Shown here piece after piece: positions 377 through 32,936 of a stretch of DNA of 39,331 nucleotides. Below the pieces are notes generated by a model that worked only from the letters and a program-made list of their open reading frames with translations, had not been told where the DNA came from and ran no database searches. The stretch's first letter is position 1, and the number at the start of each line of letters is the position of its first letter. The stretch is from an uncultured Bacteroidia bacterium (GTDB lineage Bacteria; Bacteroidota; Bacteroidia; Bacteroidales; UBA932). The position numbers were made by a program, and so were the translations under genes. The stretch lies in NCBI GenBank assembly GCA_902781705.1, contig CACZKE010000027.1, forward strand, positions 1 through 39,331, written 5' to 3'.

Positions 377-412
377 CAAAGGTAGGCTACATAACTGCCA
401 ATTCATGGCAGT
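377..412 (-). promoter_or_regulatory. Promoter P1 with palindromic operator, toward the 1-273 gene
   Basis: On the minus strand a 7-bp inverted repeat ACTGCCA-N5-TGGCAGT (394-412, core TGCC-N7-GGCA at 396-410) is followed after exactly 11 nt by TACCTTTG (377-384), a perfect Bacteroidetes -7 box. Predicted start near 372 gives a leader of about 70-100 nt. The same module occurs at 450-483 and 867-900. The palindrome sits where a -33 box would be, so it could bind an activator or an occluding repressor. Confidence 0.65.
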
Positions 413-449
413 ACGGATCTATCACGAGTGAATAGGTGGTTTTTCTTCC

Positions 450-483
450 TGCCACGGAATGGCAAACAGTTCCCCTATCTTCG
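450..483 (+). promoter_or_regulatory. Promoter P2 with palindromic operator, toward the 512 gene
   Basis: TGCCA-N5-TGGCA (450-464), then 11 nt, then TATCTTCG (476-483), a -7 box with one mismatch from TAnnTTTG. Predicted start is near 488. The leader carries a five-codon ORF (MINQS, 498-515) whose stop overlaps the ATG of the 512 gene as ATGA, and a 6-bp hairpin at 498-513 that includes the start codon. Confidence 0.6.
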
Positions 484-511
484 CGGCAGTAAACCAAATG
501 ATTAATCAATC

Positions 512-844
512 ATGAATACAGTCAAGTACGAAGAACTCTTTGCGGCCTTCGGGAAAGCTCCCATGAAGGAATTCCTGGAACTCCTGTTTGAAGGCGTACC
601 ACCAGCACTGAAGAAACGTCTTATCATTGAAGACGTATCCTATCACCGTCACAATGCTGATATAGTTACCCTGGAAGCATGGATGGTCATTGACAGCCCC
701 GAATCAGACCGATGGATCTGGGTGCGCGTGGAATCGGATTCCTCACGTAACATGATAGAAAAGCAATTCCTGACAAAGGATTCGTATCGGAAGCAGGAGT
801 TGCACTCACTGGAAGATTGTTTCGAGTATTATGACGAGCATTAA
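512..844 (+). CDS. Uncharacterised 110-aa protein in the WYL cluster
   Basis: Complete ORF of 110 residues starting MNTVKYEELFAAFGKAPMKE and ending in an acidic tail (FEYYDEH). Charged, apparently cytoplasmic, with no signal peptide, no transmembrane segment and no motif I recognise. The pattern of an amphipathic N-terminal helical part (1-40) followed by alternating hydrophobic stretches (DIVTLEAWMVID, RWIWVRVESD) suggests a small alpha/beta protein (inference only). It lies between two promoter modules carrying the same palindromic operator and just upstream of the WYL regulator, so it is probably part of that regulator's target set. The ATG at 512 overlaps the stop of a five-codon leader ORF. 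Confidence 0.7.
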   Translation: MNTVKYEELFAAFGKAPMKEFLELLFEGVPPALKKRLIIEDVSYHRHNADIVTLEAWMVIDSPESDRWIWVRVESDSSRNMIEKQFLTKDSYRKQELHSLEDCFEYYDEH

Positions 845-859
845 AAATGCCGCATTTTT
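843..859 (+). terminator. Weak terminator-like palindrome after the 512 gene
   Basis: AAAAATG-CCG-CATTTTT begins inside the stop codon of the 512 gene. The stem is AT-rich and the T-run is part of the stem, so termination strength is doubtful. It separates the 512 gene from promoter P3. Confidence 0.3.
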
Positions 860-866
860 GCAAAAC

Positions 867-900
867 TGCCGGATTTTGGCAATATTTGCATATACCTTTG
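867..900 (+). promoter_or_regulatory. Promoter P3 with palindromic operator, toward the WYL operon
   Basis: TGCC-N7-GGCA (867-881), 11 nt, then a perfect -7 box TACCTTTG (893-900). Predicted start is near 905, leaving a leader of about 90 nt before the WYL start codon at 994. Palindrome and spacing match P1 and P2, which points to autoregulation if the WYL protein is the binder. Confidence 0.65.
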
Positions 901-993: not shown

Positions 994-1896
994 ATGGCAA
1001 AGAACTATTTCAACAGGTACGTGTGGCTGATTGACACCATCAATCGCCACGGCCACATTTCCAGGGAAGAGATCAGTCGGCTCTGGGAGCAGTCCTCACT
1101 CAACGACACGGGAGAGGAACTGTACGAGCGGACCTTCCATAACCACCGGGAGGCCATCCTGGATACCTTCGGGATCGAAATCAAGTGCGACCGATCCCTC
1201 GGGTACTACATCGCCAACAGCGACGACCTGGAAGGAGATGGTATCCGGCAGTGGCTGCTGGAGTCCCTTTCCATGAACAACCTGCTGAACGAGAGTTCCG
1301 ACATGCGCGACCGGATCCTCTTCGAGAAGATTCCGTCCAGCCAGAATTGGCTTCCGGTCATCGTGAATGCTATGCGTGACAAGAAGACTGTTGAAGTGAC
1401 CTATCAGAGTTTCACGCGTAATGAGCCGAGCACCTTCATCCTGCACCCCTACTGCCTGAAGCTTTTCAAGCAGCGCTGGTATGTGCTGGGAAGGAGTGAC
1501 GGGTATGATGATCCATGGATCTATGCCCTGGATGAGCGGATGAAGAATGTCATTCCCCAGAAGAAGGCCCTGAAGATGCCCGCGAAGTTCAATGCGGCCA
1601 ACTTCTTCGACAAGTATTTCGGCGTCATCCTCGATGACAGGAAACCTTCCCCCGTCAAGATCAAGGTCGTTTCCAGCCAGGTCAGGTACATTGACTCCTT
1701 GCCGCTTCACGGCACACAGAAGCTCATCGAGGAAACGCCTGAATATGGGATCTTCGAGTATTATCTGGTCCCCACCTATGATTTCCGCCAGGAACTCCTG
1801 AGCCATGGTCCGGACGTTGAAGTCCTTGAACCGGAAGATCTCCGGGACGAGATGAAGGCGGACATCGCCCAGATGTACAAGAACTACGGTCTATGA
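994..1896 (+). CDS. WYL-domain transcriptional regulator
   Basis: Predicted DNA-binding regulator of the WYL family, 300 aa. Residues about 1-75 form a winged-helix part (VWLIDTINRHGHISREEI, then RTFHNHREAI as candidate recognition region). The WYL domain spans about 122-190 and holds the signature stretch RWYVLGR at 151-157, followed by a WCX-type C-terminal region (about 218-298). I chose ATG 994 over the in-frame ATG at 955 because the family normally begins just before the HTH and 955 lies inside the leader hairpin. Its stop overlaps the start of the exonuclease gene (ATGA), so the two are translationally coupled. WYL proteins are known to sense nucleic-acid or other ligands and to control DNA-damage or defence genes (family knowledge). 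The shared operators upstream suggest autoregulation (inference). Confidence 0.9.
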   Translation: MAKNYFNRYVWLIDTINRHGHISREEISRLWEQSSLNDTGEELYERTFHNHREAILDTFGIEIKCDRSLGYYIANSDDLEGDGIRQWLLESLSMNNLLNESSDMRDRILFEKIPSSQNWLPVIVNAMRDKKTVEVTYQSFTRNEPSTFILHPYCLKLFKQRWYVLGRSDGYDDPWIYALDERMKNVIPQKKALKMPAKFNAANFFDKYFGVILDDRKPSPVKIKVVSSQVRYIDSLPLHGTQKLIEETPEYGIFEYYLVPTYDFRQELLSHGPDVEVLEPEDLRDEMKADIAQMYKNYGL

Positions 1897-2387
1897 GAAA
1901 TTTCGCAGCGATAGATTTCGAGACGGCCAACGAGTGCCCGAGCAGCGTATGCAGCGTGGGCATAGTCGTCGTCCGTGACGGAGAGATCGTGGACCGGTTC
2001 TACAGTCTGATCCATCCCGAGCCGGAGTATTACCAGTGGTTCTGCCGGCGGGTGCATGGACTGGGGCCTGAAGATACGGAGGACGCTCCCGTCTTTCCGC
2101 TCGTATGGGAAAAGGTTGAACCTCTTATCGAAGGGTTGCCGCTGGTCGCCCACAATGCCAGGTTTGATTCGGGATGCCTGAAAGCGGTCATGCAGGTGTA
2201 TCGGATGGATTACCCCGACTATGAGTTCCACGACACCCTTTGGGCTTCCAGACGGCATTTCGGACGAAGGCTGCCCAACCACCAACTCCAGACCGTCGCC
2301 GCCGCCTGCGGATATGATCTCATGAACCACCACCATGCCCTTGCCGATGCGGAGGCTTGTGCATATATCGCCATGAAGCTTTTATGA
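1893..2387 (+). CDS. DEDDh 3'-5' exonuclease, DnaQ/RNase T-like
   Basis: A 164-aa single-domain exonuclease of the DnaQ superfamily, predicted to remove nucleotides from DNA or RNA 3' ends using two metal ions. Motifs are complete: Exo I DFET with D8 and E10, Exo II HNARFD with D92, and Exo III with H147 and D152 (HHALAD), making it the DEDDh type. No polymerase, BRCT or UvrC-like fusion is present, so it is not a conventional Pol III epsilon by context. It overlaps the WYL gene by 4 bp, placing both in one operon. A nucleic-acid processing role tied to the regulator, perhaps in damage or defence response, is plausible but unproven. No terminator is obvious in the following 140 bp. Confidence 0.88.
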   Translation: MRNFAAIDFETANECPSSVCSVGIVVVRDGEIVDRFYSLIHPEPEYYQWFCRRVHGLGPEDTEDAPVFPLVWEKVEPLIEGLPLVAHNARFDSGCLKAVMQVYRMDYPDYEFHDTLWASRRHFGRRLPNHQLQTVAAACGYDLMNHHHALADAEACAYIAMKLL

Positions 2388-32381: not shown

Positions 32382-32936
32382 ATGAAGACAAGTACTAAAA
32401 TCTGGCTCTGCATCGCAGGCCTTTTGCTCATCATCCTGGGTGTGGTGTGCATCGCCAAGCCCGACATTACGCTGGTGTCTGCCGCGTGGACGCTGGGTTG
32501 CCTCACCTTGATCGCCGGTATGGCGAAGATGGTGTTCACGCTCAAGACGCAGGCTTTCCTGCCCAACAGCGGCACACGCATGCTGAGCGCCCTTCTGGAC
32601 ATCTTCTTCGGCTGCTTCTTCCTGTTCAACATCCTGGGAACCGCCATTTCCCTCCCGGTGGTGTTCGCCATCTGGGTGATGGTCGAAGGTATCGTGATCG
32701 CCGTCCAGAGTTTTGATTACAAAGCGGTCGGATTCCCGCAGTGGTGGGTCCTGCTCATCCTGGGCGTGTGCGGCGCCGTTCTCGGTTTCTTCGGTCTCCG
32801 GAACCTCGACGTCACCGCGGGTGTACTCTCGACCATCATCGGCCTCGGTATCATCGCCAACGGTCTGGCCTATATCCTCGCCGTCGTGGGTGTGAACCGT
32901 TTCGAGAAGAAAACCGACGAGATTGCCCGCTTCTAA
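32382..32936 (+). CDS. HdeD/DUF308 family membrane protein
   Basis: 184-aa inner-membrane protein with six hydrophobic helices in DUF308 repeats (IWLCIAGLLLIILGVVCIAKP, then WTLGCLTLIAGMAKMV, a middle repeat FGCFFLFNILGTA and a closing GLGIIANGLAYILAVVG). The repeated GLLLI.GV..I-P motif is the family hallmark. E. coli HdeD takes part in acid resistance; the role in Bacteroidales is undefined. It is monocistronic, with a strong terminator right after the stop. Confidence 0.87.
   Translation: MKTSTKIWLCIAGLLLIILGVVCIAKPDITLVSAAWTLGCLTLIAGMAKMVFTLKTQAFLPNSGTRMLSALLDIFFGCFFLFNILGTAISLPVVFAIWVMVEGIVIAVQSFDYKAVGFPQWWVLLILGVCGAVLGFFGLRNLDVTAGVLSTIIGLGIIANGLAYILAVVGVNRFEKKTDEIARF

Follow-up and report, generated by a model that had tools for sequence, protein, structure and literature searches.

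Organization of the Locus

The window, that is, the whole stretch of DNA that was analysed, is 39,331 nucleotides long and constitutes an entire contig (C27) from the genome of an uncultured Bacteroidales bacterium. At its left end lies a small minus-strand gene (1–303, starting at 303 or at a later ATG), whose 3′ end is cut off because the gene reaches the end of the contig; its product had no match in Pfam, NCBIfam or PADLOC. A plus-strand gene at 512–844 encodes a 110-aa protein of an uncharacterised family, for which a model with a pLDDT of 86 was predicted and no match at E ≤ 0.001 was found among PDB structures. Further along the same strand is the gene for a WYL regulator of 300 aa (994–1896), in which Pfam, the predicted model and fold comparison place a winged helix-turn-helix (wHTH), a helical linker, a WYL domain and a WCX domain. 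Its stop codon is overlapped by the start of a 164-aa DEDDh-type exonuclease gene (1893–2387, plus strand), identified by an RNase_T match in Pfam and by exonuclease models. The PADLOC matches of the regulator and the exonuclease are at the domain level only, which is no demonstration of a role in defence. The operon has this one WYL gene, and a second is found elsewhere in the genome (C17).

Between the promoter of this operon and the WYL gene, the plus strand at 938–965 can form a leader hairpin followed by a short U run (fold z −2.84), which could be an attenuator. The hairpin is kept in near relatives; among nine sequences, both-sided changes occur at 3 of the 20 predicted pairs, although the consensus has a slightly unfavourable covariation term (+0.37). 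A search of positions 300–1100 against Rfam gave no match.

Three Palindrome–Promoter Modules

A preliminary description of this DNA had reported three identical modules around the WYL gene, in each of which a palindrome, TGCC-N7-GGCA, is followed after exactly 11 nt by a −7 box. A scan of the window found all three just as described. The first, on the minus strand, has its palindrome at 396–410 (TGCCATGAATTGGCA) and its −7 box at 377–384 (read from 384 to 377, TACCTTTG) and faces the leftmost gene. The second, on the plus strand, combines a palindrome at 450–464 (TGCCACGGAATGGCA) with a −7 box at 476–483 (TATCTTCG) and faces the 512 gene. The third, also on the plus strand, consists of a palindrome at 867–881 (TGCCGGATTTTGGCA), which is conserved upstream of WYL orthologues, and a −7 box at 893–900 (TACCTTTG); it faces the WYL–exonuclease operon. 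An imperfect copy of the palindrome (TGCCGCATTTTTGCA, 848–862, plus strand) lies 19 bp upstream of the third module and is perhaps a second dimer site. As a general feature, a second upstream operator was ruled out, since a TGCC at −18 to −20 was present in only 8 of 56 WYL promoters.

The full pattern (TGCC-N7-GGCA, 11 nt, TAnnTTnG) occurs at three places in the 3,067,297 bases and 43 contigs of the genome, all of them in the window, while a reversed control occurs at none. Clearly, the modules and their fixed spacing are not accidental, as had been argued; in fact, the original observation is confirmed and is stronger than it first appeared. When a T-rich version of the pattern was allowed up to one mismatch, it recovered two of the window sites (that at 450 has two mismatches) and, elsewhere in the genome, just two places, one of which precedes an AddB-like nuclease gene (C6:7817); the control recovered none. 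The palindrome core by itself is another matter. It had been expected about once per 65 kb and is in reality found at 70 places, or one per 44 kb, against 107 for its reversed control. The core alone was therefore ruled out as the signal, which lies in its combination with the −7 box. The preliminary description had noticed no further exact copy in the other intergenic regions; the window as a whole has two more cores, at 1700–1714 (within the WYL gene) and 32560–32574, and neither is followed by a −7 box at 11 nt.

The spacing is fixed in relatives as well. With the gap left free between 3 and 30 nt, 54 of the 57 matches in 151 genomes of the genus (both site classes described below taken together) had it at 11 nt, and the reversed control gave five matches. 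The spacer carries at most 0.36 bit of information per position. Conservation is highest in the right half of the palindrome, TTTTGGCA, which is on the promoter side in every case, and the −7 box is an ordinary TAnnTTTG. The left half lies where 180 other promoters of the genus have a −33 box, with TTG enriched 3.4- to 4.0-fold at that place; the absence of a TTG −33 box from the modules follows in part from the pattern that was searched.

Conservation with the WYL Gene

It had been suggested that the upstream regions of orthologous WYL operons be compared, and this comparison shows the module to be conserved. The best 80 of 183 relatives of the WYL protein were taken from named genomes, mostly gut and rumen Bacteroidales MAGs, and were picked without reference to the motif; three loci with too little upstream DNA were left out. 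A strict module (TGC(C/T)-N7-GGCA, 11 nt, T(A/T)nnTTTG, within 300 nt upstream) precedes 57 of the 77 testable WYL genes, and its frequency falls with identity to the window's protein, from 33 of 36 at 60% or more to 18 of 25 at 50–59% and 6 of 16 at 43–49%. The same test found it before 31 of 551 other same-strand ORFs of those loci, genes of the regulon included. With a free gap of 0–30 nt before the WYL genes, 58 counts fell at 11 nt and eight at all other gaps (three at 9, one at 12, one at 17, two at 29 and one at 30). Since 25 of the 57 module-bearing WYL genes have no adjacent exonuclease, the module evidently follows the WYL gene; an exonuclease without a strict module was seen at six loci.

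The strict module is missing from 20 of the 77 orthologues. In four loci that miss it (L250 and L252 of Rikenellaceae, L256 of Bacteroides sp. and L257 of Bacteroidales), inspection by eye shows that TGCC, the N7 centre and the 11-nt gap are kept and that the right half is worn. At these loci the exonuclease is 87–88% identical to that of the window, and the WYL protein only 50–51%. Given these diverging identities and the worn half-site, the two genes seem to have had different histories. More distant WYL genes, found by an order-level search at 27–51% identity, carry the module in only 1 of 18 cases (L400). None was found in the 220 nt upstream of 13 loci with WYL paralogues of 30–37% identity (L019–L031); several of these paralogues sit behind recG in one operon, and thus the 220 nt examined are not their promoter. 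A scan of viral contigs for phage carriers matched 15 stretches, with no relative among them.

The association also holds at the level of whole genomes. Of 200 genomes of the genus, 74 contain the pattern, at 138 places in all; the reversed control gave 11 by our own count. The sites were sorted, by definitions made after they had been seen, into class W (A/T-rich ahead of the right half and without a following CA), class C (followed by CA) and a remainder, and WYL orthologues were searched for separately as proteins with an identity of 54% or more. Of the 26 genomes with a WYL orthologue, 23 have class W sites, as do 25 of the 174 without (Fisher p 6e-14), a count in which three genomes that hold WYL fragments (G018, G184 and G213) are taken as being without. 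When the sites directly before WYL genes are removed, the figures are 19 of 26 and 25 of 174 (p 2e-9). Many of the class W sites in the 25 genomes without a close orthologue precede an AddB-like gene. Class C sites do not track this WYL protein, being found in 4 of the 26 genomes with it and 31 of the 174 without (p 1), and the same holds for the remainder, found in 2 of the 26 and 15 of the 174 (p 1). Some of the named loci are the same contigs as those of the genus genomes (L202, for example, is G114:C5), and the two sets are therefore not independent.

Genes behind the Module in Relatives

In 835,218 bases around these WYL genes, with the WYL promoter itself excluded, 71 modules have the gap of 11 nt, compared with 16 at all other gaps from 0 to 40. 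The first genes behind the modules, in counts where some loci figure twice because they belong to both sets, are led by AAA ATPases (26, two of which were tested and match IetA models in PADLOC), WYL genes (18), AddB-like nucleases (9), the 512 family (8), the exonuclease alone (7) and a family of 171–174 aa without assigned function (6). Smaller groups, with families assigned through Pfam, are GmrSD nucleases (3), FtsK-like translocases (2), PLD nucleases (2) and one MoxR ATPase of the MoxR–vWA ternary type, and small proteins without assigned function are also found there.

The eight sequences of the 512 family, among which two pairs are near-identical, are 37–96% identical to that of the window, and in seven of them a module starts 53–62 bp before the ATG. 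A homologue of the leftmost gene, 39% identical, has a module 58 bp upstream (L219). Each of the three window targets thus recurs behind the same module elsewhere. In a near relative (G186, locus L128) the three-module layout is repeated with a different third gene. The regulon of two proteins without known function and an exonuclease that had been proposed is accordingly true of this genome, while in relatives it is larger and variable. At another locus (L180:4649-6220), a TROVE (Ro60-like) gene adjoins another WYL paralogue and has a module with the 11-nt gap 114 nt before its ATG.

A Second Class of Sites at Repair Genes

The class C sites have the same 11-nt gap and occur in part of the genus. 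They can be written TGTGCC-N7-GGCACA, with CA after the core in all and, as judged by eye, TG before it in 22 of the 31 strict ones. Such sites precede recA in L113, L115 and L150 (recA being named here from sequence and not by a family search), a recG gene followed by a WYL paralogue in L125 and, with looser flanks, an AddB-like nuclease gene. The AddB-like genes, of about 970 aa, were at first guessed to encode SusC or UvrA; Pfam identifies the products as PD-(D/E)XK nucleases, and AddB-like is our own reading of them. Within the genus, 12 of 30 AddB-like loci (L367–L396, of which L384 is unreliable), that of the window's genome included, have a module with up to three mismatches, in all 12 at 11 nt. 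The corresponding figure for recA is 8 of 30 genus loci, again all at 11 nt, with L291 and L299 doubtful. An order-level search listed 30 recA loci, of which two belong to the genus and one of these is the window's own; none has a module.

As a general control of recG, class C was not borne out, as only 1 of 30 recG upstream regions has a module at 11 nt. In five others (L306–L309 and L311), TGCC-N7-GGCA is placed at the −7 box itself or immediately behind it, an arrangement suggestive of repression. A reading of class C as a sigma-54 promoter was dropped because the distances, in a manual comparison with the sigma-54 motif, do not fit. In the window's own genome, a class C palindrome (G000:C1:192558-192589, L036) stands 9 nt, and not 11, before TATATTTG and directly precedes a 177-aa gene without assigned function.

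The WYL paralogues of the recG type have recognition helices of the form R-(T/S)-F-x-N-H-R, as does the WYL protein of the window, and this shared helix makes the recG-linked WYL protein a natural candidate for the reader of class C sites. Class C may mark a WYL-controlled repair regulon in an order reported to lack LexA-type regulators (PMC8565304).

Comparison with Known WYL Systems

The solved structure nearest in fold to the predicted WYL model is DriD, and the order of parts in the model (wHTH, three-helix linker, WYL, WCX) is that of a DriD-type activator. Residues R46, T47 and F48 of the recognition helix are invariant in 55 WYL sequences. The arginine pair with which PafB contacts ssDNA (R211/R214), as mapped through alignments, is not kept: position 175 is W here and R in 36 of the 55, and position 178 is S or A in 51 of the 55, which leaves ssDNA uncertain as a ligand.

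DriD is described as a WYL activator with a small regulon that includes the exonuclease gene recJ, and its palindrome, with a centre of 7 nt, covers a poor −35 box at a constant distance from the −10 (PMC12340889). The modules share with it the 7-nt centre, the position over the −35 (here −33) place, the constant distance from the −10 (here −7) and the small regulon with an exonuclease gene, in this case the DEDDh exonuclease. They differ in their half-sites (TGCC/GGCA here, ATACGAC/GTCGTAT in DriD), in phylum and in targets, and an ssDNA signal is described for DriD. DriD does not control its own gene, whereas a module here precedes the WYL gene itself. A second comparison is offered by the mycobacterial PafBC, a heterodimer of two WYL proteins that acts by sigma adaptation, where a WYL-WCX activator assumes the −35 contact and recognises a −26 motif (PMC11804915).

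The WYL proteins CapW and BrxR repress CBASS and BREX islands and have palindromic binding sites in promoter regions (PMC9122588, PMC9122601). Like the present system, they combine a wHTH-WYL regulator near defence genes with palindromic sites and control of their own expression. They are unlike it in being established as repressors and in where they bind, for CapW sites overlap the −10 and BrxR repeats come after the predicted −10, whereas all three palindromes of the window end 11 nt before the −7.

The preliminary description had also held that Bacteroidetes generally lack LexA, which is too broad. Non-canonical LexA proteins occur in many Bacteroidetes and are reported absent from Bacteroidales (PMC8565304). 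Palindromic sites at repair genes are what they have in common with the present system, and their predicted targets include a COG0847 exonuclease; they are S24 repressors with the motifs CTAA-N5-TTAG and GGA-N5-TCC, unlike the WYL system here. A Pfam search with the regulator protein alone found WYL and WCX and no S24 domain.

Proposed Mechanism and Alternatives

The most likely interpretation, and one in which we have reasonable confidence, is that the three modules are promoters of one small WYL regulon, in which a DriD-like dimer would replace the −33 box and activate transcription. A dimer of the WYL protein, the likely binder, would sit on TGC(C/T)-N7-GGCA with the left half in the place of the −33 box, so that the −7 box TAnnTTTG would be all that remains for sigma. 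Once bound, the dimer, which a ligand presumably switches on, would anchor RNA polymerase much as DriD does at sites that overlap the −35, and so activate the leftmost gene, the 512 gene and the operon that encodes WYL itself and the DEDDh exonuclease. Anchoring of this kind would explain why the 11-nt distance to the −7 box is fixed while the letters between are free. The AAA ATPases, PLD and GmrSD nucleases, and FtsK-like and MoxR ATPases behind the same code suggest an output that is probably a response to nucleic-acid damage or to phage. The earlier proposal, a small regulon governed by the WYL protein (or another dimeric factor) bound where the −33 box should be, agrees with the −33 position of the sites, their conservation upstream of WYL orthologues, their tracking of the WYL gene and their presence at homologues of both unassigned genes; that interpretation is partly supported and is here extended.

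A WYL dimer could instead act as a repressor of the CapW/BrxR type, covering the promoter and blocking RNA polymerase until released by a ligand derived from phage or damage, with the fixed gap as the best blocking position. Autorepression is common, and several recG loci have a related palindrome on or just after the −7 box. CapW and BrxR themselves, as WYL repressors of defence genes that bind promoter-region palindromes, add to its appeal (PMC9122588, PMC9122601). A blocker, however, needs neither an exact gap at more than 100 promoters with unrelated spacers nor the loss of the −33 box; the palindrome here ends 11 nt before the −7, whereas CapW sites overlap the −10; and DriD is the nearer fold. 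Repression is a serious but unlikely alternative to the DriD-like activation favoured here.

It is quite improbable that some other dimeric factor reads the modules and that the WYL gene is merely one of its targets. Such a factor would accommodate the class W sites of those 25 genomes (of 174) in which no close WYL orthologue is present, as well as class C, which has the same geometry and does not track this WYL protein. Yet 57 of 77 WYL genes have the module before them, whether or not an exonuclease is adjacent, and modules track WYL genome-wide even when the WYL promoters are subtracted; some of the exceptions hold WYL fragments, and the recG-linked paralogue, which shares the recognition helix, could read the rest. 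Still less can be said for the recognition sequence of an alternative sigma factor, in which TTTTGGCA would be the upstream element. The right half is indeed the best conserved and always points toward the promoter, but it is paired with a left half, TGC(C/T), to form a palindrome, there is nothing unusual about the −7 box, and the sites track the gene of a dimeric DNA-binding protein; this reading is very unlikely. Finally, chance, or the inheritance of one promoter copied along with its genes, could draw on the core being common and not enriched in this genome, and is held to be refuted by the spacing peaks, by reversed controls of 0, 11 and 5 against 3, 138 and 57 places, by spacers that share no sequence and by sites before non-homologous genes in different genomes.

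Implications

In the literature searched, no paper on a WYL operator in Bacteroidales was found among the matches listed. The promoter code described here is best read as a WYL code of the DriD type, and its regulon was likewise not found among those matches. The code bears on how damage and anti-phage genes are controlled in Bacteroidales, which are reported to lack the LexA-type regulators of their phylum (PMC8565304). It is conceivable, as a tentative and rather speculative extension, that in these bacteria paralogous WYL activators run damage and defence responses through one promoter code (TGCC-N7-GGCA exactly 11 nt before the −7, replacing the −33 box), with the flanks sorting the regulons. 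Sites of the form C-TGCC...GGCA-R would then serve the exonuclease-linked WYL protein and its local defence-like cluster, and those of the form TG-TGCC...GGCA(CA) a dispersed repair regulon (recA, the AddB-like nuclease and the recG–WYL operon) read by the recG-linked WYL protein.

Any genome can be scanned for this promoter code, for which the analysis also names targets, a DriD-type candidate regulator and a prediction about spacing that separates activation from repression. Where genes of unassigned function follow the code, as the 512 family does, they are candidates for a role in defence or repair. Taken together, the relatives mark the modules as a conserved switch for a few nuclease, defence-like and uncharacterised genes in gut bacteria, and the WYL protein itself probably works it.
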